Assembly: GCA_000310025.1 (NCBI GenBank)
Contig: FN647938.1
Coordinates: 541,044-605,043 of the forward strand
Length of the DNA: 64,000 bases
Direction: 5' to 3'
From: Ectocarpus siliculosus
Taxonomy: Eukaryota > Sar > Phaeophyceae > Ectocarpales > Ectocarpaceae
Made by a program: the position numbers and the translations under genes. Of this stretch, positions 2,461 to 62,000 are shown one piece after another. Numbering within the stretch: position 1 is the first letter of the stretch; every line of letters begins with the position of its first letter. Under the pieces are notes generated by a model. The model made no database searches and was not told the origin of the DNA. It worked only from the letters and a program-made list of their open reading frames with translations.

Positions 2461-3116
2461 ATCGCCTCCTTGATCTGCCCCAGACCGAATCCTTCCTCGT
2501 CCAACTCGGCGTTGCTGGCCGTGGACCCCTCGGATCCCTGGGGAACTCGCTGTTGGTGACCTTGAGGCCCCGTCTCGTTCCCCTTCTTCGCCGAAGCGTC
2601 TGGCGCTGGTACGACGGGCGGCATGCCTGAGTGGTGGCAAACACGAGCGGGGCGAGATGCCGCCCGTGCTGCGCCACGTTGGAGAATTTTTCCCTCCAAT
2701 TGGTCCCATAGTGCCCGCCCTTCCTTGGTCCCGGTGGAGATATACTTTCAGGGCCTCGATTTCGTTGTCCTTATCGATGACCTGCAGGTCGGCGATAAGG
2801 ACGAAGAAATCGAGGCCCTGAAGGAAGGTCTCCACCGGGACTAAGGAGAAGGGCGGTCCCTATGAGACCAGTTGGAGGGAACATTTCTCTAACATCAACG
2901 TCACGCCGCAAGGGAGGCATTTCGCTCCGCCTGTGCTTGCCACCACACAGGGCTGCCGTCCATCGTACCAGCGCCAGACGTTCCGGCGAAGAAAGAGGAC
3001 GAGACGGGGCCTGAACGCCAGCAGCAGCAAGTCCCCGAGGGCTCCGACGCGCCCGCGGCCAGCAACGCCGACTTGGACAAGGATTGATTCGGCCTGGGGC
3101 AGATGAAGGAGGCGAT
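2461..3116. repeat. Large imperfect inverted repeat with decayed coding copies
   Basis: The left arm (2461-2784) and right arm (2785-3116) are reverse complements of each other with substitutions and small indels, meeting at the perfect palindrome GACCTGCAGGTC (2779-2790). Read outwards from the centre, each arm encodes the same peptide family. Both show a segment like IEALK..LHRD near the centre, a VPAPD..AKK segment mid-arm and FGLGQ-KEAI at the end. The right arm carries in-frame stops, including a TGA near 3085, and its frame runs on past the repeat through a glutamate/lysine-rich, coiled-coil-like segment to about 3267. This looks like a head-to-head duplication of one gene or mobile-element segment, both copies now decayed. 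The parent family is not recognised. Confidence 0.85.
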
Positions 3117-3696
3117 ACTTCGGTCCATGGTGGTGTTCAAGCAGGAGGAGAAGCGCGACCTGCAAGAGGGGAAGGCACCATCGGCACCGCGGGCCAAGGC
3201 GACAGCAGCACCGGGAAACTACATGCATCGTTACTCCAAGTATGAATATCGCAACCAAGCGCTGTAGGCTCAAATCACACGTGGTCGCCAAGGGACCCCA
3301 ACCCCGAACACAGCTCCCTGATACTGTAGGGTATCCACACATTGCTATGTTAGTGTTTTGGCGATGTTTTCGGCAAAAGAGCACTCGACGTTCATAGCGG
3401 AGCGAGTGAGTCATTTCAACGCACTCAAGGGTTCTCAACGGAAACTACAAGAAGAATATTGTATGCGACGAGGTCGACCGCAGCTACCAGTGTGCCGTCG
3501 AAGTCAAACATGTAGCAGACCACCCAATAGCGAGATTGGCAGGGTGTGATCTGTCTCTTTAGGCAGTAGCATCGTTAGTGCTCTCGCCACCGTCATCGCC
3601 GCCGTTCTGACCAACCCCTTCACCACCCGCCCGCTTCTTCCTCTATGGTGTTGGGCGCGCGGAGAAAGAGCGACAAGAAGGAAGAAGCCCCCAACC

Positions 3697-5632: not shown

Positions 5633-8437
5633 GTTGTTGTGTTGCAGCATACAATATCTACGTATATCCAACCATGTCTGAATCATGCGACAATTGCAAT
5701 TTGCTGTAATCCGTGTGATTCGGGTATTTTTGTTCTTGTCCGGCCGTAGGACCAGCCAATCGACCAGCACGTACGTATCCTTGTGTCCCTGAGAGGGAAC
5801 TATTTGACCCAGCCGTCGCAACAAAACTATGTTACTGCTGCACTGTTATTGCAAAAATTTTTCTGTAGAGTTGAGGCGTATTGCTGAGTTGGGGATGCAA
5901 GCAGCGAATGCATCGTGAAAGCTGTCAAGGTTTGGATTTATGATGGACGTCGTCGTTCCGGCGGCTCGCAAGGCGGACGTGAGTCATACTCGTTTTCCAA
6001 ACACGAGTTGGTCTGCCACATGCACCGTATTAGATATACTTCTCCAACGCTTTCTCCAACGCCGCCTTAATCTCTCTCTCTTGGCCTAACACGGCCAACT
6101 ACCCCGTGCCCCAAGTAACGCCCAGCACGGGCTTGCTGCACCTCCACGCAGTTTACCTTTCACACCGCATCTCTGTTCCCGAGGCTATTTCCTTTCCTTG
6201 TTTCTCGTCTTTGTCTGTCCCTGTCTCACGGCACTCGCGCCAACCCCAACCCCGCGTCCACGTCGTGATCGCCCATGTTCTCGCTTGTACTCCTTGCGAT
6301 GACGTGCTTCGCCCCCTGCTAATACCTCGCGCTAATCGATGAACGCGTAGTAACGCGTGGTGCCCGTTGGGCGATCTACATTCACAACACGCACGGGCGG
6401 TAACTCACTCATTATGTATTGAACTCACTCACTCACTCACTCAAAGTGCGTGGACGGGCGTTTTTGGCACGGCCGGGGCCAGCTGATTGGTGCTAACCAT
6501 GTTGTAGCAAGTGATCTGAGTCATGGGTATATTGATGAGCCGGTGATTCATGGCAATGTTTCTTCTTCTGGACTGTGCCGTAGTCCACCAATCAGCTATC
6601 TGCAGCTACAGCAGTACCTCCCGCAAGGTCGATGAAGTTTCCATGAAGAACATGTGGCGCTCTTCCTGGTCTCCGTTGCATTCCTCTTGGGAATGGAGTT
6701 CATACGTGCATACGAAAGATGACCTGCTGTCCGCGCCGTGCCGCCTGAGACATGCTTGTCGGTCTTAGGGTCGACCTTTCGGGTGTACTTTTCGACATGA
6801 ATGCACGAACGCTCCTGGAACCTGACTGCACCACGATGTCTTGCCGTGCATGCCTCACAAACTGGGATGACATTCGCCAGAGCTGCATGTGGAACCCTCG
6901 TCGTGGAACCCTGTCGCTCACGTGCGCTGCTGCCGTCTGCAGCTCGCCCAATAGGAATCCCGACAACCCATAGCCCGAGAGTTAATACGCGCGTCACCTG
7001 GTCGAAAGCAGCAGTCGAAACATACCGACATGACGGTATGAATGCTGTGCAACAGTTGCATCTCACGGCAGTTTTTCGCGCAACGCTTTTCCATTTTTCG
7101 GGGGAGGGGGGACGGTGGCGACGTCTCATTTTCTCAGATTGTCTTAGACCTGCTCTCCACACACCTCACACTGCTGGACGGCCCGTGAGGTCCGTGGGGC
7201 GTTGCTGGTTTGGCCAATGGAGGCACGCTCGTCACAGGGTCCTGGTGATCCTTGCCTATCCGTTGCGCTTACATTGTTGTCGACCCAAGTTGGTGGATTT
7301 AAGGTAGGTTTGGCAGTTGCGCCGCATTTACGTCCATGGTTGTGCGGAGGCAGGATGGCAGGATGCTCGACATTGACCTAGCGCAAGATCTCCTCAACCC
7401 TATGTATGAAAGACGGCCCTTTCGCTCAATGTGTCATCTTACATGTAGGGTGGAAGGCGAAAGGGTCACTCGTAGTTCACGGACAAGATGAGATTGCTTG
7501 GGTGTACCGTCACGGGACTGTCATTTTCCGCCCTATGGCATCTCGCGGAGAAAAGGCTTACTACCATGTGCCGAGTGCCGAGTGTATACATCTGCGAGTC
7601 CTTTTGAGTTGGTGTCTGCAGATGATCGACACGTACGTTGCATTTCCATATCCTGAAGGCACCCGACCTAGACTACTGCTAGTGAAAATATATTGAAGAG
7701 CGTTCCCACAAATCGTTGATAGGGTAGTCTACATGTCCTGCATATATGCCTTTGGTGCGTGAGTGGGCACGACCTGCGCCACTACTGTGTCTCCTCTCTC
7801 ACTTTGCAACCACTCCCGCCGTGCGTCGACTCGCTACACCCGTGGCACATTGCATGCTCACCGCCACTCAACTGGCTGCTTCGGCAACGAAAGGAAGGAG
7901 ATGTGGCTCCCGTGGCTGTCGCCGCGGCCCTCGACTTTCTCTCCTCGCCGTGCAGGACTAGCGCGCGGTTCCCTGGACTACGCGTCGTGTTTGCGGCCGA
8001 GGAAGGATCGACCGCTCTGGTGGCCTTAAGAGAGCACGCCCCAGCCTTGGCGGAAGCGGGACACGAATCGTGAGTCGTGCACTGAAAGTGGCCGATTTGT
8101 GTATGGGCGAGTCATGAATCGTGAGTCGTGCAATCACGTTGGCCGAGTGTAGGGACGCCAGTAGGAACAAGCAGGTACACCAGGAGGTGAGCTGCAGCCG
8201 CAGGGCAGAGCATCCAAATCGTCGAAGGGGCGGAGCGTTCACCTTGAGTAGCCACCAGCGAGAGCGCGAACTCGTGAAACAAGGAAAAGTCTAATGCGCC
8301 CTGCTTCGGGTGTAGTGAGGCATTTTTTGTGTGGTGTGAACCGCTGCCGACTTTGCTTGCCGATCGATGTTGGGCGGAAATATTCTGTGCTCTACTGTTA
8401 GCGTGGATGCCTACAATTTCCATGAGTAATTATCAAA
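4146..8437. other. Intergenic DNA, mostly without recognisable content
   Basis: Apart from the GTT microsatellite and an ACTC-type short tandem repeat near 6408-6445, I find no supported gene. An open frame ending at 8073 (from about 7850) has coding-like composition (runs such as PVAVAAALDFL) and could be a terminal exon of an unrecognised gene, but I found no upstream exon in phase. Just after it, the segment around 8066-8096 (CGTGAGTCGTGCA core) is repeated about 50 bp later near 8113-8147. Confidence 0.4.
5548..5645. repeat. (GTC)n/(GTT)n microsatellite
   Basis: A GTC run passes into about 25 GTT/TTG triplets interrupted twice by GTG. Long open frames over it (poly-Val, poly-Cys, poly-Thr) are products of the repeat, not genes. 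Confidence 0.95.
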
Positions 8438-46785: not shown

Positions 46786-49700
46786 TCAACCAGAAGCACC
46801 AGCACCCCCCCCGGCCTTGGCCGACAAGTCCAAGACCGGTGACACCAGTTCCCACATGGGTCTGCCCACGAACACTACCTCGTGCGTGTCCTTGTCGTTT
46901 ACCCCCTCGTCCCTGACGGCCTCTTTGATAGCTGATGCGCACTCTCGAAGGGCGGGAGCGGGGCTCGAGTCGATGTCTTCCGGGTGGCACCTGCATCGTC
47001 AACGTTGCCATTGATGGACATTCAGTCGTGTCAGGCACACAGCAATACCCAGTAGTAATTAAACAAGCAGTGCTGTCCTGGTTATCGTCATGAGTTATCG
47101 ATACCGGTTTCGTTGTCAATTGTTGGTGAAGGCGTGGAGTGGGTGGGAGTGCTACAGTACAGCTAAGGAAGGTGCGCGAGCTACGGATGGCGGGTGAACG
47201 AAGCCTGTGATCTACTTCTAGGCTTCTAGGTATTTCTGGCCCACGTAGTTGATACCTTGGCGTCAGGGAGCCAGTGCTACAGCAGATCAGCTCGACGTCG
47301 TGCACACCGTGTGTAGTGTACGTGTGGGAATACAAGAAGTGCCCACGTTAGAAAAGCGAGTGGTGGAGAACATCACGTGCGGCTCCCAGAACCACCGCTG
47401 GAGATCAGAAAAAACACGACAATTCGGCTTTTGAAGTGCGACGCTTTTTCAGCTTTTTTCTTTCGAGTACGAAGTATCCGGGGTGCCACCCCATTGCTTC
47501 GAGAGAGGGGAGTGATATTCGGCGAATAAGTTTGGCCAAATTAACCGGCACGCGCAACTTTCTTCCTTAGACCGGTGCTTGAATCACCACACCGCGCCGC
47601 ACGACACTCGCCTGGTGAGGGTAACCTCGAATCGGACGACGAAGTCTCCGGCATCGTCGGCACCCTGGAAGAGGGAGTCAAGCACCACGTCCACCGAAGA
47701 CCGTGCCCTCAGCCGCTTCACGGCAGGCACGAAGACTTCTTCCAGGCGGGCGGCGGCATCTTCCAGTTGCTGCGCGTTCATCCCGCAGGACGCGCCCCCC
47801 TGCGGAGGTGCCAAGGCGCGCCAAGTGAAACACGGGGGAGAAGGGAAGGCATGTCGAGCTTGAGGACGTCGTAAGAGGCAACTGCGCGGAAGAGGAAGTG
47901 GGCACGAGGTCTTGGGTGTGCTGAAACATCGTGAGATTGCCACGCTTTCGAAACAAGACTTCCACTCACTTGCCCGCCAGTTTTTTTATGATCATGGGGT
48001 TATGGTGTTGCGTTGATCGTTGCATGGCCACAGAGCGCAAGCGAAAGTGAAAAACAAAACGAAACAGCAGGACGTCAGGAATGGCGTCATCAAAAGAAAA
48101 AACCCATAGGATAAAGCTAAGCGTCAATAATGCGCCGGCGTCACTGCCGCGACACCCAGAATGACTTCCACGGTTCGTCAATCAAGACGGTTCGTCTATC
48201 AAGATGGTACGTTATTGCCCACCGGAACGTATCATATGCGGGAAGGTTAAGGGATCCATCAATGTACAGCATGGCAAAACATATTACAGAGATAACCGCC
48301 TGCGCACCTGGAGAACCCTGAACTCGCAGTTCGTCTCCTCCAGGAAATGTGACACCAGACCGGCGGCGAAGCCTCTGCTCATGTAAAACACACACCAAGG
48401 TACAGCCAGTAGGTGGGGCGACAGATAGGGGGCAGTCAGAGAAACAGCCAAACGAACACGAGCACAGGCGGATCGTCAGATCGTTGTCATCGTTCTTGCA
48501 GGCACGGTATGAACAGCACCACAGAATTAACCAAAAGGTGGCCCCGGCTCTCTTCTCTGCGATACGAACTGATGTGTACGTCTACACTTTGAAAAAAAGC
48601 TACTGCTGATAAAAATCGAGGATCAAGCGGTGTTGTTGAGAAGAGACAACAATATGAAAACTTCGCCGCACCAAAACCCGCACGCAGGCATCGAGGAGGA
48701 GCGCGCCTTTGCGCCATGACGACCGACCCAAGTTTCCTTGCCGTGTGACATCGACGCAATACATCGACCATCCGACACATATCTACAGTACACCCCAAGA
48801 AAAACCATTACTATTAAAAAAACACCCAGACACCAAGGGCCGCTACGTAGAGATATATATGTAGCGAAACTCAGCGATTTCCCACCTGGCCCACGGCGGA
48901 TAGACTATATGTTATATTCAAAGGGTGCGCGTGTAGGGGGGGGGGGGGGGGGGGCCAACAAAAAAAAAAAAATGCCCCCCGCGAAAAAAAAAACCCAAAC
49001 CCCCAAAATGGGGTTGACCCCCGGGGAGGGGGGGAGGGGTTNNNNNNNNNNNNNNNNNNNNNNNNNNNNNNNNNNNNNNNNNNNNNNNNNNNNNNNNNNN
49101 NNNNNNNNNNNNNNNNNNNNNNNNNNNNNNNNNNNNNNNNNTGGGGGCATTCAGAGAAACCGCCAAAGGACCCGGGGCACGGGGGGTTTTTCAGTTTTTT
49201 TTATTGTTTTTTGCGGGCCGGTTTTAAACAGCCCCACAGATTTAACCAAAAGGTGGCCCCGGTTTTTTTTTTTGGGTTAGGAATTGATTTTTATTTTTCC
49301 ATTTTAAAAAAAAGTTTTTGTTGTTAAAATTGGGGGTTCAAGGGGTTTTTTTGGGAAGAGACAACATTTTAAAAATTTTGCCGCACCAAAACCCCCACGC
49401 GGGCTTTGGGGGGGAGGGGCCTTTTGCCCCTTGACGACCGACCCAATTTTCTTTCCGGTTTGAATTGGACCCAATACTTGGCCCTTCCGACACATTTTTC
49501 CATTCCCCCCCAAAAAAAACCTTTTTTTTTAAAAAAACCCCCAGCCCCCAGGGGCCGTTAGGTAGAGATTTTTTGTTGGGGAAATTCAGGGTTTTCCCCC
49601 CGGGCCCCGGGGGGATAGATTTTTTTTTTTTTTAAAAGGGGGGGGTTTTGGGGGGGGGGGGGGGGGGGCACAGCACAACATACAACATGCCACGCGCGAA

Positions 49701-51408: not shown

Positions 51409-54400
51409 ATGCTCAAGGTGGCTTCTACAACACGTGGTCCTTCACTGAGTAAGGCGTGGGAAGTTTCCAAGGCGCACAAGGGAGCTTTCAGGTAAGCAAT
51501 CATATCGTGTGTTTTTCAAACGTATCCGCGGCCGCCTCGTACGGATGTACCGCCAGCAGTAGCAGCACAAGCCTGCGAGAGAGACCAGAGCACCAAAACC
51601 GTCGTGTACCGGCCAGTTGCACGTACAAACACTGGGTTATCCACAACGGTACTTTCTATGCTACCGGAGACTTCTTTCCCTAGCATTCGCGCAGCTTCCA
51701 CGCCGCGCAGCTTCCACGCCATGCGCCGTGGTCCACAGCAGCGGCCAGTACCTTGCTTGGGGACATGAGTGGCCGTGCATCGCAGTGAGTGATAGGAGAT
51801 GTCTTGTGTGTCGGCCGATTCGTTCACGCCCACCTTCGCGGCGGTGTTCACGTGTTCAATGGACAGTAAAACGGCAGGTTTCTGCTGCACTTTCTGTCAG
51901 CCGCGTGTCGAGTAAAAACATCCACTAAATACCACCAACAGGGGCAGTCATTATCCTGCGATCATGTTGTGTGGCGATGTGTAAATGACATGAACCCGTT
52001 ACCCGAGACATTCGTAGCATATCACGCCCAGCATCTACCCGTTTGCGCTCGCGTGAATGCCGTTTCTGCAGACGCCTCTCGCCACCACGTATAACTTGTC
52101 CTGTAGGGTTTTATGCAGTCGCGCTTCCGACAGGGTGGCGCCCTCTCCGTTCTTAACCACGGTACATGGCTGATACAGCAGTAGTATCGCGCAGCAGTAA
52201 GTACCGATGAGCGCCCCCCTTGAATCAGCCGCCAATGGTGAAGGTGCAGCAATCATCACCACGCGGGCACGGCATGATGTACTCACTGGTGCTCCTGGCT
52301 TGGGCGCCGACTCTTGAAACCCAGCATCGCGCACCAGCTACAGGCCGGTTCACCCATCACTAATATTAAGTATGTCGTATCGACTTCGGGAGGGCACGGC
52401 AGTATCACGAGCGACGACAAGCCCTGCTCTTCGGATGTAAATGACGAGTCGTGCCACCTCCCCACCCCGCACCCATAACTGGCCGTGAATATCGTGGGCA
52501 ACCTCTCTTACACCCGCTCTATTTGTTTCTCTGCCTGCTCTGTCTGCTCTTGCATCGACCAACCTGCTCAGCGGAGGAAAGGTCGAGCTCAGCAGGGATG
52601 GCAAGTTCCTGGCCTGCCTGTACGAGTGGGACGTGTCCTTCGTCGACGTGGAGGAGGGGGTTGTGACCAAGCGCCTCAGAAGCGAGGGGAGCCCCGGAGG
52701 CGAGGAAGAAATTGTGCGTCACTTGAAAGCAGAAACAACAGTGCTGTAGTTGGGGGAACGTAAGGTCTCCACAAAGTCGGGATCGTCAGTCTTGCATGTT
52801 TTGGGCTACACGCCTCCTCGGTGCTGGTTGAGGGGTTCGTGTGTTGCCCGCGGCATGTGTGCTTTTCTTCCCGCATCGGAGGTTTCATGGTCTGGCCAGG
52901 CACGCAGATGCTTTCTCGCCACTCTGTGTCACCTAAATGAATCGAAGCCGTTTCGTAGAAAAAGGGGTGCTTGTAGCGAGTTGTCTGTTTATGCCCGCAG
53001 CAGCGTTCACGACGATGTTGCATGAATGCATCCTAACTGCCATTTGCACTATGATACTGTTCTTCGGTTCCGCAACAGTCACCTGTCGTACAGCCTACAT
53101 AGATATGCGCGCAAAGTGCCCTTTTTTATTCTTGTTCGGTTCTTCAACTTCGAATACATTTGGTAGGTATCCTTTGCTCTGCACCCGAACGGGTCGGAGA
53201 TCGTGACCGCCAGCCGAAGTCTCCTACTCCGGCATTGGGAGATCGCTACAGGGGACTGCAAGCGGGCCATCAAGGCCCACGATCACATCGTCCGATGCAT
53301 GGACTACGATGGGTGGGTCTCATGCTTCGCGTGCGCACTGCTGTCCCGTGGCCGTGTAACGCACCTCTAGATTATGAGAACCCGTTGCGATCCACGTATC
53401 CTGCGGCGATCAAGCTTGTCGGCCTTTTGACGACGAGGAATCATGGTCTCTAGAGGGTGGTTTGTACAGGGACAAACATTGTCATTTCTGTGTGCCTGGG
53501 TGTCTTCCATGTACGAAAGTCCGACAAAGGACGAGCGTTGAGAGCGCACCAACACCACCAAGAAGCAGGAGTGAAAACAGCGATCTGTGAGCGGCTTGCC
53601 TGCGGCTGCTATTATGCGTTTTTTATTTTTTCTCGTGGTAATTTTCAAAGGCGGCAAATAATCGTGTTTGTCGTCGATGTTTCAAGGCTCTACCCCGCTC
53701 TCGCCGATGATCGATTCCTTCGGGCCTACCCACCCCACGCGCTCTCTCGCGCCCTCGCCGGTGGTGGCTCGTTCTGAGCCGCCGTCGGAGAAGTCACGAG
53801 AGAGTGGGGCAGTCTAAGCGCGGCGGCTACCTGCGGTTTTCGCGGGTGGCTGCCGTTCGTGCGGGCGTCGGGGACTCTTGAAGGATGACAAAAAAGCGTC
53901 TGTACACATCGTGATGACCATCTAGATCCATTCTTTGAGGCGCATGAGCACGAGAGAGCTTTTCGTGAAAGGGTAATTTTCTGCTGTGTACAATAAGGTG
54001 CTTGGATAATGGCTTCGTTTTGTGTCGTCTGGCCTGTTTACCTCTTTTTCTTGGATATTCCGATCCCGCGTCCTTAGCTGCTGTTTCGAGAAGGACTTGT
54101 TTTAGTCTCCGTTGTTGTTTAGACTCTCTGGACGCAGAATGGATTGTTGCCTCCGAACCACAACACCCAGTATTTCCTTGGCCGCTTTTACTCTGCTCTC
54201 GCCGATGATCGATTTCTTCGGGCCTACCCACCCCACATGCTCTCTCGCGCCCTCGCCGGTGGTGGCTCGTTCTGAGCCACCGTTGGAGAAGTCACGAAAG
54301 AGCGGGGCAGTCTAAGCGCGGCGGCTACCTGCGGTTTTCGCGGGTGGCTGCCACTGTGCGGGCGTCGGGGATGCTTGAAGGATGACAAAAAAGCGTCTGC

Positions 54401-55976
54401 ACACACCGTGATGACCATCTAGATCCATTCTTTGAGGCGCATGAGCACGAGAGCGTTGAACCATCCTTCTTCCAAAACCACGAATCTCGTATCCTGTTTT
54501 TTTTTTTTGTGTGCCCTTCAAGGTTGATGCTGGGGGCACCGCCGTGTAGTAGTTTTTTTTTGTTTGCCTCTGCCTGCCACCATTGGAGAGGCAAGGCCGG
54601 TGTTCTCAACCACCTCTGGGTTGTTGCTTTTTCATTAGTTGCCGGTGTTCAAGCAGTCTAGAAGCGTTAGCAATCCCAAGCTCGCCGATGATGGATTCCT
54701 TCGGGCCTACCCACCCCACATGCTCTCTCGCGCCCTCGCCGGTGGTGGCTCGTTCTGAGCCGCCGTCGGAGAAGTCACGAGAGAGCGGGGCAGTCTGAGC
54801 GTGGCGGCTGCCTGCGGTTTTCGCGGGTGGCTGCCGTTCGTCCGGGCGTCTGGGACTCTTGAAGGATGACAAAAAAGCGTCTGTACACATCGTGATGACC
54901 ATCTAGATCCATTCTTTGAGGCGCATGAGCAAGAGAGCGTTGACATATCCCTCCCCCGGAACCATGAATATGACCATCTCGTATCCTGTTGTCGGCGTCC
55001 GTTCAAGACTCGATGCTAGGGGCACCACCGTCTAACGGTTTTTGATTTGCCTGTCTGCCACGATGGGAGAGGCGAGGATTTGCAGTGCTTAACAAGGCGT
55101 ATGTTCTCAACCATTCTGTTTTGTTGTTTTTTATCATGAGTTTTTTCGGCAGCATTCTCAAAAATAATCACAAGCTTTAGATGATACTCACAAGCTCGCC
55201 GATGATGGATTCCTTCGGGCCTACCCACCCCACATGCTCTCTCTCGCCCCCCCCGATGGTGGCTCGTTCTGAGCTAGCGTCGGAGAAGGCACAAGAGAGC
55301 GGGGCAGTCTGAGCGTGGCGGCTGCCGGCGGTTTTCGCGGGCGGCTGCCGTTCGTGCGGGCGTCGGGGATGCTTTGAGGATGACCAAATAGCGTCTGCAC
55401 ACTCCGTGAAGACCATCTAGATCCATTCTCTGAGGCATATGAGCACAATAGCGTTGGTCAGTTTTCCCGCTTTTTTTCGTTCGCGGTTTTCTTTTGGGGG
55501 GCGTACGTCATGCGGATGCTTCTGCTAAGGTCTAGTTGGTTCGAGTGTTATGTTGTAGAGAGAGGACGGCTGGGCTCGGGGAGAAGGGGGGCGCTGTTGA
55601 TACGGCAACACAAGCCAATGGCCTCATTCTTCTTTTTTTTTGCCACGGCATTTCCCCTCGTATTGAATACCATGTGAGCAGTCCCTCTTGCATTTTTTTT
55701 GTCTCGGCATCCGTATTGCACCACACCATGTGAGAAATCCCTCGGCTTTTTGTTCCTGGGCATTCCCTCTTGGCGTACATTTTTCTTCTGTTCCCACCGC
55801 AGTACCGGTACTCTGGTGGCGACGGGCAGCAGCGACTCTACCGCCAAGGTGTGGGACGTGGAGAGAGGGTACTGCACGCACAACTTTCGCGGCCACACGG
55901 GCGTCGTCTCCGTGGTTGCGTTCCACCCGGTGAGAGCAATGACACCGCGCAAGGCGGTCTGCAAGACGACGGGCGA

Positions 55977-56008
<32 letters not shown>

Positions 56009-59000
56009 TCGTTGTTGTGGTTGTGAGCACGTCGCACATGCAGGAGGGTCTCTGTGCATGCCGTATTAGTAGTTTGCCGAGTGGCTATTACGAGGAGGTG
56101 CAGTTGGCAGTTGATTCCAAGGAGCAGGGTACGTTAACCACCAAGAAGGCCACTGTAGTGACCAAGAAGAAGGGTACAGTAGTACCATAGAGACGAAGGA
56201 AAGTACAGCCAGTGGAGACCAAGAAGGTACTGTAGAGACCCAGGAGAAGAGTACAGTCAGTGGAGACCAAGAAGGGTGCAGTAGAGACCAAGGAGAAGAG
56301 TGCAGTAGAGACAAAGGAGGGGAACAGCGACATACCTCCGAATTCTCGCAGCAACGCCTCTCTCAGTGGCCAGGCGACTTGCACTTAGGTCAAGCCCGCC
56401 TCTCCTGCACGTACTCTTCCACGATATCGACGCAAAATGTGTAACTTTCCTCAACGCAAATGTTTGGGTCCCGCGCTCTGCTTGTGCTTGGTACGCTCTT
56501 GTGTGTTTCCCCCCGGCTGCTTTTCCACGTGCAACGTGTCGCAACAGGACCCGAAACGCTTGACGCTGGTCACCGGCAGCGAGGACACGACCGTACGAGT
56601 GTGGAGCCTCTCGGAGCAGTCCTGCACGGCCGTCCTGAAGGCACACCTTAGCTACGTGACATCGCTGGCGTTCTTGCCGGGGGGGACCGGGGTGATCTCC
56701 GGCGGGCGAGATCGCGTTCTCAACGTCTGGGCCCTGGACAGGTGGGTTGTTCATTGTGTCCTGTTGAGCTGGGCGGAGTGTGTCGTGATGTTGTTGGTCC
56801 GTTCAATCGGTGTCGCGTGAATGGTGCGCAAATCGGGAAGTAAACCCAGCACAGCAGAGGCAGCAGCATCAGCATCACCAGCATAATCGCCACGACAAAA
56901 GTCAAATCGTGAGGCAGCAGCACGGTTCGTCACCCCAAATTTTTTTCTGCGTTGGGTACAAAGCTGTCACCGTGGACGTGACCTTAAGCACTCACACCAC
57001 ACGAAAATGATTGTGCGACAGCCGCCAGCTGTGCCCCCAATGCTTTTTCGCGGTTGGCTGCGACAATATTTCAGCCGGTGCTACATTCGACGTGATAATA
57101 GTTGATGACGACAACCACATACACATACACACACGAGGACTAATCATCTTCCGTCTTGGGCCGACCACAGCTCTCAAGAGTGCTGTCGGTCATCCTTGGC
57201 CCCTTGGACGTCCAAGTTCCTCGGAGATTTACACCTCCCGACGGCCCCCTCTGTCAATAGTGGGCGGTTGTTTGCGTTGAGGGCCGTTGTCGCTGTTTTC
57301 CCACACGACCCCATCCAATCACATGGGTGGGGGATACGGGCAGTGACGTCGGATATTTACATAGCAGTTGTATGTGATCGTTCCGGCTTCAAGGACGCCC
57401 TTGGTTTTTCTCGAAACGTATAGTCTCCCCCAGTACCCCCCACCCCCTACATCGTTTTTACATTCTGCCGGGCACAGGTATACTACCGAAGCCGCCGCTA
57501 CCCCCTACATTGTTTTTTTGCATTCCGCTGGGAACCACAGTTTTGACAACAACCAATTCAGGGCACCCGTCAAGCGGGAAGTGCCCTCTAAGCAGGCACG
57601 ACTCTCATGGCAATCGTGCAGCAATGCGTGAGAGGAGCGGCATGAGAATCCGCGGTGTATTAGAACATGTGGTTCATTCATGACATGCTTGCGTTTATGC
57701 CGGATGTGCTCCGTTCGTAGGTCGGAGGTGCGAAAGACGTTTCCCGTGTACGAGGAGGTGGAAGGGCTTCAGGTTCTTCCGCAGTCGGAGGAATTTTCTG
57801 AGAAATTTCCCGTGTCCGCCGCAGGCAGCCTCGTGGCGGTCGCGGGCAAGAACGGCGTCGTGAGAGTGTTCTCTCTTGAGGGTACTCTGGTCGAAGCAGC
57901 GGCACCGGGAAAAGGAAAGCACAAGCTTGACCGCGTCAACAAGAAGAACAAAAAGACTGCGTTGCCGGCAGCAAGCGACCGGGATGAAAAAGAGCAGCGG
58001 CTGACGTGCCGCTGCGTGATGACCCAGGACAACGCTTCCGCCTCCCACAGGGCCGGCTACACGTCCCTCCTCCTGGACCCGCGAAGATGTGGTCTACTGG
58101 CCGTCACCGCGGACCACAACCTCGTCTTGCTCGAGGCTAGCGGCAAACGCCGCCTGGGGGAAACCCCGGGGGCGGCGGCGGCTGTTGGTCCTCTCGGGTC
58201 ACTGGTTGCCCGGCGGCAGATCGTGGGATACAACGACGAGGTGATCGATGTGAAGAGCTTCCCCAGCGGCGGCGAGTCAGACGGGGAGAGCTGGGTTGCC
58301 GTGGCGACCAACAGCCCGCAGGTTCGGCTGTTCGAGCTGAGCAGCTTTTCGTGCCGGCTGCTGGACGGACACACGGACACCGTGCTGGCCTTGGACGTGG
58401 CACCGGACGGGTGAGCCGCCCAGCCGCTGTGGTGGTCGTTGGGAACACACATCGCTAGCCTCTGTTTGACTACGGGTGGGTATTTTAAGAGTCGTTGAGG
58501 ACACGGAACGCTTACTTCAATTCGTTTTTCTCATGCGCAGTGGGTCTAGGAGTAGTTGAGAGGGCACGGAACGCTAACGTTAATGGCTTGCTCATGCGTT
58601 GTGGGTTTAGGACTCTTCGAGCATACTGGATGATAACCCGCGAACGTTGGACAAACTGAATATTCGTTGTGTCGTCATGTCCGTCGCGACACTCCCCGAA
58701 TTTCTCGCCCGAATCATTATTATTTTTGTTTTCGAGCGAATGGCCCCGAGAAAATGTCGGCTTTCCACGCATTGACACACATGCCTCCTCCAAAAGTTGC
58801 CTCGCGAAATATTTCTCTCTCGTAACCCTTTCCGCCTTCCTCCAAAACTCACCGCCCTCCTACCTCCTCAGGCGGCACCTTTGCACGTCCTCCAAGGACC
58901 GCACCTGTCTCCTGTGGAACGTCGACCTGGGGGTGCCGGTGGTACGGTGGTCCGGCCACGCCGACTCGGTGGGTGCGGTGGCAGCCTCGCGAAAGCCTGG

Positions 59001-62000
59001 CCCTTGGAACTCCTCCTCAACCTCTGCCGCCGGAGGCGCAGCTGCCTTCGTCGTGAGCGGTGCCGCCGACCGCACGCTTCAGCGCTGGGACGTCCCCTGC
59101 CGCCCGCTCGCGGCACTGGAGGGGGCGGCGAGAGACTCTCGGGAGGCGGCTGCAGAGGTAGCGGCGGAGGCAGCGGCGGAAGCCGACGGTAGAGGCAAGG
59201 GTGGCGGCGGCGGCACCGGGGTGTGGACGCCCCCGGCGCCGCTGCTGGAGACGGCGCGGCGGAGCGTGCGCGCGCACGAGCAAGACATCAACTGCGTGGC
59301 CGTGTCGCCGAATGATGCGGTGGTCGCGAGCGCGTCCCAGGACCGCACGATCAAGCTCTGGAAGGCAGCGGACCTGGAGCTGACGGGGGTGCTCAAGGGC
59401 CACAAGAGGGGCGTCTGGAAGGTGAGGCTTGAGCGGAGCTTGTTGTGGGGCCACGAGGGTCTTTTGTTTCGTGTCTAGATGCCCTTGGTATTGCTTCGCG
59501 AGCGTAGCGGCGGGAGCCATCGGAGGATGATCGAGGGGCACAGCTGTTCGGTGCTTGGTCATTTTGCTGTTGTCTTTCAAAGCGCCATGACGTCCTACAA
59601 CTCATCTCTCCACTGCTGACGTTGGTTTGATGTAATCAAAACCCCAGGTGGAGTTCAGCCCCGTGGACCGCTGCCTGGCGTCGTGCTCCGGTGATCGCAC
59701 CGTCAAGCTCTGGAGCCTCGCGGACTTGTCGTGCCTGAGGACGTTCCAGGGCCACACCGCGTCCGTCCTAAGCGTCGCCTTCGTTAGCGCGGGCGCCCAG
59801 GTCGTGTCCGGAGGGGCCGACGGGCTGGTGAAGGTCTGGACCGTGCGCTCCGATGAGTGCGAGGCTACGCTAGACGCGCACACCGACAAGGTCTGGGCGT
59901 TGACCACTGCGGCAGCGCCGGCGGTGAGGAGACATCGGGATGAGGAAGAGGAGGTGGAAGGCGGAGGAGAGGGGCCGAACGCGGGGATAGTGGTTGTTAG
60001 CGGCGGCGCGGACTCGGTGATTAACGTCTGGAAGGACGTGACGGCTCGAGAAGAGGTGAGGGAGTTGTCGGTGTGCGTTGATGATGCGAACGTGTTTTCT
60101 GTTCTTTTTTTTTCGTGCGCAAGCTATTGTGATGTGACGGTCCTTGGGTGTCCTTGTGGTTTTTGTTTGGCTCTTGATGAGAATCTCTTTCCGGTTGTTT
60201 GTGTTTTCCTGGTTCCTCCTAACCAACCTGGTTCTTCCGCCGCCGCCGCCCCTTGGCTTCTTTACGAAAATGCCATCTCGGGGTTTCCAGGAGAAAGTGA
60301 TCGCGGAGAGGGAGAACGCCCTACTCAAGGAGCAGGAGCTGTACAACCGGCTGAGGAACAAAGAGTATGGGCCCGCCATCGCACTAGCGCTCGAGCTCAA
60401 GCGCCCGCAGAAGCTGTGGGGCGTTCTGAGGGACGCCATGACGGAGGGGATGGGAGAAGGGGGACAAGGTGCCCCGGCGGGCGGCGATGAGGGTGAGTGT
60501 ATCACAACAGAAGAGATGGTTCCCAACCAACGTGCGATGGTGCTGACGAATCGATAGTGGACGTTGTTTAGATCGGTGGCGGAGGGCTCACAAACGGTTA
60601 CAGCAGGGCTATTCTTTTTGGGTGCTCTTCCTCAACCGTCCGTACAACTATGCTCGTGTGCAGCAGCGCTTTTATGTTTGCGCTCCCACCCACGTTGCCA
60701 TCGATAGTGTCATGGATGCCCTGAGGACTCTGTCGCTTTCTCTCCTCCTTCGTGGGATATATTCTGCTTCGGCGATGTAGGCACCTTTTGTTGCATGCTA
60801 TCTTTATTTTAGTTGACAAGATATTCCAATACCCGCGGTGCTTTTAATGTTGTCAGAAACGACGACGGAGATGGCATCTCGCCGTTTGGACGAGCACGTG
60901 TCCTCCTGGACCATGGACACCATCAGCCAGTGCCTGGGGTACTGCCGCGATTGGAACACGAACGCGAGGAAGGCGGTGGTCGTGCACGCCCTCGTGGGGA
61001 GCATCCTCCGCTGCGTCAGCATCGGTTCTCTCAAGGAGCTGCCGGTGAGCAGTGCCTCTGGACCAATGTTTTAGTGTGTACATGCTGTGTCGCGAGACTG
61101 CAAGCTTGCGAAGTTGCTTGTCTGGCTAATTCCAAAGGTGTGTCAACTGAAACGTTGGCGTTCACAAATGGTGAACAAAGCGCCAGGCTAATGTTGTACT
61201 TCTACAAACACCATGCTGGAATAATTTTCTCGCTCCCTGTACTGCTATAGACCTATAGACGGATTTCCTACGGGCTGAGAGCTCACGAGATCGCAGGAAA
61301 GGCAATCCTGATGATCTCGTGAGCCTAGAGCCCTTTTTTCGAGATTTCTCCGCCCGTTGACCTCGCCTCGAAGCGAGACTTGCACTTGCCGATAGCCCTG
61401 TGTTGCGAGGGCCTTCCCGGCGTGCCGCGCGCTCTCGGGGCGGACTGCGTGCAGCGCTAGCGAGGGCAGAAAGTCGCGTCTCCGACATGTACCATGGATC
61501 CACCAATCACACCCCGATTTCTTGACAGTGCAGGCCACTCATACATACATTCGGCAAGCGGCTGACGTGGATTGTGCGTGTGCGCTGGCTACACACCACA
61601 CACCCTGCCACACACGACAACCAAGCCACCAAGTCTCCGCATGAGACGAGACAAAGTACTCTACTGCTGTAGTGCGTCTCCCTTTTGATCCAGGCGAAAG
61701 GCGGGGGGGTGAGCGGCCAGTGTCGTGCGTACAGCTGTCTGCAAAACTACCCCCGCCCGAGAAAAAAAAAATTGAAATACGTTGTTTGTTCCTCCGTTTC
61801 ATGGAAATACTTTTTTTTTTTCCCGGAAATATCTTCTGGATACCTACCGCACTTATTGTAGAGCGGCTACCGGGACATGCTCCGCATCCCACCAACACAC
61901 ACCAACACACGAACTTCTACACTCATCTGACTCCCAAAACCCTCTAGCAGAAGATATAGAAATACTACTGCTGCTGCTGTGGGTTTCCATATTTTCATAA

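Follow-up and report, generated by a model that had tools for sequence, protein, structure and literature searches.

Four conserved, structured blocks in an intron of Ectocarpus UTP13 as candidate snoRNA-like genes

U14 (SNORD14) is a textbook box C/D small nucleolar RNA (snoRNA). U3, U8 and U13 are large box C/D snoRNAs, in which internal hairpins are enclosed between C- and D-like boxes lying near the two ends, while H/ACA snoRNAs are multi-hairpin RNAs, often intronic and 200-250 nucleotides (nt) long. A repeat comparable to these systems was analysed in Ectocarpus siliculosus, within a 64,000-nt stretch of contig FN647938.1 (positions 541,044 to 605,043, forward strand; here called the window), where four conserved copies of one sequence block lie in intron 3 of the gene UTP13. 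The four copies are probably intron-encoded snoRNA-like genes, each predicted to specify a structured non-coding RNA on the same strand as UTP13.

For Ectocarpus, the accessible part of PMC4513859 reports snoRNA loci predicted with ACAseeker and CDseeker, for a total of 88,311 bp, and places 75% of the microRNA (miRNA) loci in protein-coding genes, principally in introns, all but three being on the host strand. The UTP13 array may already be included among those predicted snoRNA loci. Elsewhere, 17 orphan snoRNAs devoid of predicted targets are listed for Ostreococcus tauri in the portion of PMC7671301 consulted, and the lengths of snR30/U17 are given in the corresponding portion of PMC7601244. 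No UTP13-hosted RNA array was described in the literature searched, at the level of titles and beginnings of abstracts.

The repeated block and its host intron

The repeat consists of four direct copies on the + strand, located at about 53700-53956 (copy 1), 54198-54453 (copy 2), 54681-54937 (copy 3) and 55195-55451 (copy 4), with start-to-start distances of 498, 483 and 514 nt. The nearly regular spacing noted in an earlier inspection of the letters alone (the sequence-only reading) is thus confirmed. The unit of about 500 bp proposed there fits this spacing and not the sequence: the repeated part is a sharply bounded block of about 255 nt, separated by spacers which are mostly unalignable. 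Pairwise identity between blocks ranges from 223 to 246 of 256 columns (87-96%). Copy 1, which covers alignment columns 3-258, is identical to copy 3 at 246 and to copy 2 at 242 of the 256 columns; copy 2 carries a 1-nt deletion at column 161, and copy 4 is the most diverged, private differences being 3, 6, 3 and 21 in copies 1, 2, 3 and 4, respectively. The GC content of the blocks is 0.60-0.62, versus 0.45-0.52 in the flanks. As the blocks account for about 1.02 kb of an intron of about 2.49 kb, the statement that the array fills it was exaggerated.

Spacers 2 (54454..54680) and 3 (54938..55194) are diverged homologues, which can be aligned in pieces at 72-81% identity. Spacer 1 (53957..54197) has no detectable homology to the others, and comparison of this spacer and of the outer flanks with spacers 2 and 3 revealed nothing beyond short words at chance level. 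The block is sharply delimited at both edges: 12 of the 15 columns from 259 to 273 are variable, and no 6-mer is common to at least three copies in the 60 nt upstream of them. There is therefore no sign of a promoter of their own.

The relative conservation of block and spacer was evaluated by aligning copy 2 plus spacer 2 with copy 3 plus spacer 3, the only period pair aligned end to end. Mismatches were found at 19 of 258 block columns versus 77 of 219 spacer columns (Fisher p 3e-14), with 1 gap column in the block and 42 in the spacer. A neutral satellite is disfavoured because the block has diverged far less than its own spacer, gene conversion being a partial alternative. As in snoRNA genes, a conserved, structured block is set in unconserved intron sequence, here as seen by comparing copies within one genome.

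A DNA search of the 189-Mb genome, run with the whole block and again with 95 bases at its 3' end, detected the same four places only (E-values for the block from 1e-129 to 3.5e-91); since this search skips very common words, its repeat counts are lower bounds. Exact patterns derived from two invariant stretches gave 0 matches each against the viral_contigs set. A covariance model of the block, run on the window, recovered the four copies plus weaker hairpin echoes on the minus strand, and nothing new. Tandem Repeats Finder, limited to periods of at most 500, reported no array of the block unit. In a BLAST scan for direct blocks lying apart from each other (60 nt or more, 80% identity or more, within 3 kb, head-to-tail pairs that touch being dropped), the UTP13 array was the only one in the window. 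A satellite or a dispersed repeat was rejected, as these searches found no copies beyond the locus and the array is partitioned into conserved and unconserved portions. The sequence-only reading had offered a local satellite among its explanations: the repeat is indeed local, but neutrality poorly explains the difference between block and spacer. It had also stated that a widespread known repeat family with dN/dS near 1 and no transcripts would leave a mere intronic satellite; the ratios obtained for the 36-codon frame agree with this, but the repeat is not widespread, being found at four places.

The host was identified as UTP13 because its WD40 exons are accompanied by an exon for the Utp13 domain (PF08625, 34.6 bits, cut-off 25.9). 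The gene is partial in this analysis (51409..60557, + strand), its exon boundaries having been placed by eye and its 3' end not traced. Exon 1 lies at about 51409-51491 and further exons start at about 52560, 53167, 55803, 56548, 57722, 58900, 59648 and 60261. Among the first five introns, intron 3 (53313-55802) has the greatest length, the others measuring about 0.45-1.1 kb, and within this scope the earlier description of it as the longest in the gene was correct. The array is therefore located as intron-encoded snoRNA genes are, in an intron, on the host strand and in a gene for ribosome biogenesis or translation; the role of UTP13 in ribosome biogenesis counts in favour of the snoRNA-like reading.

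Upstream of the gene, as judged by eye, the region 48400-48890 seems to recur at about 49160-49650. Many homopolymer-like errors surround a gap of N there (the window contains 100 N), and the whole, 48400-49660, looks like a poorly polished assembly duplication.

Folding and box motifs of the block

The + strand of the block folds better than expected from its composition. Minimum free energy (MFE) z-scores were -3.25, -2.59, -2.99 and -3.33 for copies 1-4, and only 1, 2, 0 and 0 of 200 dinucleotide shuffles were as low, while z ranged from -1.4 to +1.75 for five spacers and flanks. The RNAalifold consensus features three hairpins, given here with copy 3 coordinates. Hairpin 1 (54714..54790, columns 36-112) is defined by the consensus and its pair counts. 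Hairpin 2 (54793..54847, columns 115-169) has an inner 14-bp stem, in which pair 132-150 is changed on both sides in copy 4, and hairpin 3 (54858..54920, columns 180-242) has an 11-bp basal stem, with a compensatory pair, 184-238, in the same copy.

Box C/D snoRNAs are recognised by a box C (RUGAUGA) near the 5' end, a box D (CUGA) near the 3' end and a terminal stem. In copy 3, a C-like AUGAUGG is found at 54688..54694 (also in copy 4; copies 1 and 2 have AUGAUCG) and a C'-like GUGAUGA at 54892..54898 (columns 214-220; 7 of 7 letters in copies 1-3, GUGAAGA in copy 4). The latter is followed by an invariant 17-nt sequence, CCAUCUAGAUCCAUUCU (54899..54915), identical in all four copies and a candidate guide, and then by a D-like UUGA (54916..54919; CUGA in copy 4). 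The GGC after the D-like box (columns 242-244) can pair with the GCC before the C-like one (columns 6-8), for a terminal stem of 3-4 bp. As read from the alignment, G9-A10-U11 form a three-nt bulge and G12-A13-U14 stand opposite U239-G240-A241, invariant in the four copies; this is presumably the core of a K-turn. A score for the C/D arrangement, computed for copies 1-4, was reached by 0, 2, 1 and 7 of 2000 shuffles. On these motifs, box C/D is a plausible class and the best candidate, although the boxes are imperfect.

The block resembles U3, U8 and U13 in having internal hairpins between C- and D-like boxes located near its ends, U3 also being close to it in size. It differs from them in the imperfect identity of its boxes and in having no Rfam match, and U3 has its own loci. 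It is likewise similar to H/ACA snoRNAs, including snR30/U17, as a multi-hairpin, intronic sequence of about their size. In that class, an H box (ANANNA) lies between two hairpins and an ACA 3 nt from the 3' end. H/ACA was rejected: no ANANNA is aligned across the four copies (those at columns 191 and 193 are confined to copies 1-3), the m1 and m2 motifs of snR30 are missing, and no 3' ACA is shared, the blocks ending in ACG, ACG, AAG and ACA.

U14 genes as an internal control

Four U14 copies are present in the genome, arranged on the host strand as two same-strand pairs. One pair lies between exons of isoleucyl-tRNA synthetase, IleRS (stretch L028, 4332-4447 and 5289-5404; spacing 957 nt, blocks 97.5% identical), the other between the FtsJ exons and the Spb1 DUF3381 exon of SPB1 (stretch L029, 5157-5271 and 4575-4689; spacing 582 nt, 94.7%). 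Their C and D boxes can be read in the alignments, together with two motifs which we take to be those pairing with ribosomal RNA (rRNA). With scores of 44.9-47.7 bits, all four fall short of the Rfam cut-off of 64, which indicates that Rfam models call too little in this genome.

The layout of the UTP13 array is much like that of these genes, and this is the comparison that weighs most in the present reading. In both cases GC-rich copies recur on the same strand, hundreds of nt apart, within a host gene, and one of the U14 hosts, SPB1, is nucleolar. Neighbouring UTP13 blocks are 94.9, 92.6 and 88.8% identical at the spacings given above. Flank identity is 0.38-0.49 for U14 and 0.37-0.64 for UTP13, unrelated 120-mers giving 0.43 +/- 0.05; the UTP13 values of 0.60 and 0.64 exceed this level because the spacers are homologous. 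U14 blocks have a GC content of 0.54-0.60 versus 0.37-0.47 in their flanks, and block GC exceeded flank GC in all six sets compared. The two systems differ in that U14 is about 116 nt long, has canonical boxes and is recognised by its Rfam model, albeit below the cut-off, whereas the UTP13 block is about 255 nt long and has neither. In addition, U14 has two copies per host gene rather than four, and its flanks are wholly unalignable, while UTP13 spacers 2 and 3 still align.

The direct-block scan detected seven pairs in the two U14 stretches, namely the two U14 pairs, three further short blocks and two rows of L028 which look like ordinary duplication. No such pair was detected in five other stretches of 9.5-10 kb, among which L016 and L019 are 25-50% N. 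The contrast is suggestive but is not a rate, because the U14 stretches were picked for holding U14, L016 and L019 are rich in N and touching pairs were dropped.

Other repeats were observed near the U14 pairs. In L028, an 81-bp block occurs at 6553-6633 and 6772-6852, 219 nt apart and with 100% identity; CAG/CUG ends around C-like and CUGA boxes, seen by eye, suggest another C/D snoRNA. The same stretch contains a perfect head-to-tail duplication of 445 bp (2771-3658). In the SPB1 region of L029, repeated blocks were found at 2686-2822/3361-3497 and at 4264-4360/4381-4481. Assignment of the former to SNORD15 (U15) was rejected, the match being weak (23.9 bits, E 0.14, and 23.7 bits, E 0.16) and a genome-wide search giving another place (27.4 bits, E 0.04). 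A D-like box with a comparable imperfection (AUGA, by eye) is present in a repeated block of L029, itself only a candidate, and imperfect boxes may be usual in this genome.

Weighing the alternatives

Several points weigh against snoRNA-like genes. Gene conversion alone could keep the blocks alike, and conservation was judged between copies in one species only. The C/D score was designed after the motifs had been seen, and a value of 19 is reached by 16 of 18,113 windows across the 64 kb (both strands, blocks included). Box C agrees at 5-6 of 7 letters, and the D-like box at 3 of 4 letters (UUGA) in three copies and at 4 of 4 in copy 4. Both the D box and the guide would be buried if the 11-bp stem at the base of hairpin 3 formed. 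Several pairs and the C'-like box are broken in copy 4, which is possibly decaying. Good folding is likewise obtained for the minus strand (z -2.1, -2.9, -1.8 and -1.6), on which copy 2 even folds better, and the bias towards the + strand is modest. Both sides have changed with pairing kept in only 2 of 83 pairs; this covariation does not exceed chance, as 186 of 500 shuffles do as well, and was rejected as a proof of structure. No Rfam family was assigned: the scan of 53000-56500, with E up to 10, gave five rows, two for SNORD46 (E 2.2; best 18.1 bits, cut-off 40), two for Sso133 (E 8.5 and 9.3) and one for isrG (E 6.1), and the gathering-score scan of the whole window gave 0 matches. Moreover, the U14 pairs used for comparison are placed between host exons, and the two members of a pair may lie in different introns.

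A further point concerns the candidate guide, for which about 10 nt or more complementary to rRNA or small nuclear RNA would be expected upstream of D or D'. In the last 725 nt of 18S, the only 18S part available, complementarity was not above shuffles: the best duplexes scored 24.4, 29.0, 26.4 and 29.0 for copies 1-4, while 60 letter shuffles of copy 3 gave a mean of 26.2 and a maximum of 32.6. The rRNA searches did not find the rest of 18S, the full 5.8S, or 28S beyond short pieces in the assembly; one of twelve probes, a 5.8S one, matched, and two 5.8S family matches fell in stretches where nothing else of rRNA reached the gathering score. A 26-nt stretch of 28S rRNA, presumably the usual R2 insertion site, was seen twice (L016 7344-7369, and L017 on the minus strand), other 28S probes giving short mismatched matches there.

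The strongest alternative, though an unlikely one, is a non-functional local repeat, in which the copies of a duplicated 255-nt piece would owe their similarity to gene conversion alone and would yield no RNA. Exchange between copies is the simplest reading of the 11 two-against-two sites, whose grouping shifts along the block: columns 1, 2, 15, 119, 124 and 132 group copies 1 and 2 against 3 and 4, while columns 178, 179, 206 and 212 (and 84) group copies 1 and 3 against 2 and 4. This homogenisation weakens, and does not remove, the inference of selection. Conversion alone would also agree with covariation no better than in shuffles and with the private changes of copy 4, several of which break pairs. 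It accounts less well for the sharp edges of a block diverging far more slowly than the adjoining homologous spacer, for a fold better than that of most shuffles, and for a layout like that of the U14 genes.

Somewhat less likely still is a diverged version of a known processing RNA (U3, MRP, U8, U13 or snR30/U17) missed by the Rfam models. The size and multi-hairpin shape of the block would fit, and the low scores of U14 indicate that such a miss could occur. U3 (RF00012) was rejected, the covariance model giving no match in the block and four loci elsewhere, and so was the RNase MRP RNA (RF00030), with no match in the block and one locus elsewhere, at 79.2 bits; the search elsewhere covered U3 and MRP, and not U8, U13 or snR30. 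Concerning snR30/U17, the motifs AUAUUCC(UA) and AAACCAU, as given in the part of PMC7601244 consulted, are absent from all four copies, and this RNA was rejected as well. The four U3 loci lie on four contigs (L005-L008), score 44.7-56 bits and show CGAUGA-type C boxes by eye.

A miRNA or other Dicer-type precursor, with the 77-nt hairpin 1 of each copy as a pre-miRNA released from the intron, has a slightly lower probability again. Hairpin 1 is long and well paired, and the block shares with Ectocarpus miRNA loci, as described in the accessible part of PMC4513859, the position of a hairpin in an intron on the host strand. It differs from those loci by its three hairpins, its invariant single-stranded parts and its fourfold array. 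Moreover, the whole 255 nt are conserved, hairpins 2 and 3 as well as single-stranded parts which vary less than hairpin 1 (2 of 23 columns variable in columns 13-35, versus 14 of 77 in hairpin 1). The small-RNA precursor array suggested by the sequence-only reading was thus the closest in spirit, for a structured, apparently non-coding sequence in an intron on the host strand, but the layout is best matched by snoRNA genes, as judged from U14, rather than by a precursor of miRNAs or small interfering RNAs.

The same ATG-to-stop frame of 36 codons reported in every copy (53707..53817 in copy 1, stop included) is open in all four and free of gaps. An intact frame is expected, since the sole gap in the block alignment, of 1 nt, lies outside it, and similar frames on the complementary strand, also reported, call for no special explanation in a block so rich in GC and so poor in indels. 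Purifying selection on amino acids, as a protein-coding sequence would show, was not found: the 16 variable sites of the frame fall 7/4/5 on codon positions 1/2/3, rather than at third positions, and pN/pS varies between 0.37 and 3.7 across the six copy pairs. The frame is judged fortuitous, and repeated exons of a nested protein gene are very improbable.

The array is a real, local, structured repeat devoid of coding signal, and most likely neither a satellite nor a hidden protein. If its copies are snoRNA-like genes, the block RNA would be co-transcribed with the UTP13 pre-mRNA and freed when exonucleases trim the excised intron back to a protein-bound core, yielding an RNA with three hairpins assembled into a small nucleolar ribonucleoprotein. 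More specifically, this may be guessed to be a large RNA of the box C/D type, in which a GCC/GGC terminal stem would be followed by a C-like box at the 5' end, a C'-like box, the 17-nt candidate guide and, at the 3' end, a D-like box. Such an RNA would serve to modify rRNA or to process its precursor. The four copies would derive from local duplication, the block being kept alike by selection on the RNA together with gene conversion while the spacers drift. It can also be suggested, very tentatively and well short of an even chance, that the block defines a lineage-specific family of nucleolar RNAs of about 255 nt, outside Rfam, amplified in UTP13 as a gene of the small-subunit processome; RNA and protein would then serve the same pathway of 18S maturation, their dose being coupled via one transcript.

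A puzzling intronic repeat is thereby turned into a testable cluster of non-coding RNA genes, in a lineage for which the literature searches found little on snoRNAs. A cheap rule is suggested for the Ectocarpus genome: short blocks repeated at intervals of a few hundred bases, on the strand of the gene that hosts them, may flag snoRNA-like genes, including those missed by Rfam. Should the block prove to be a true processing snoRNA, its location in UTP13 would link the RNA to 18S rRNA maturation.

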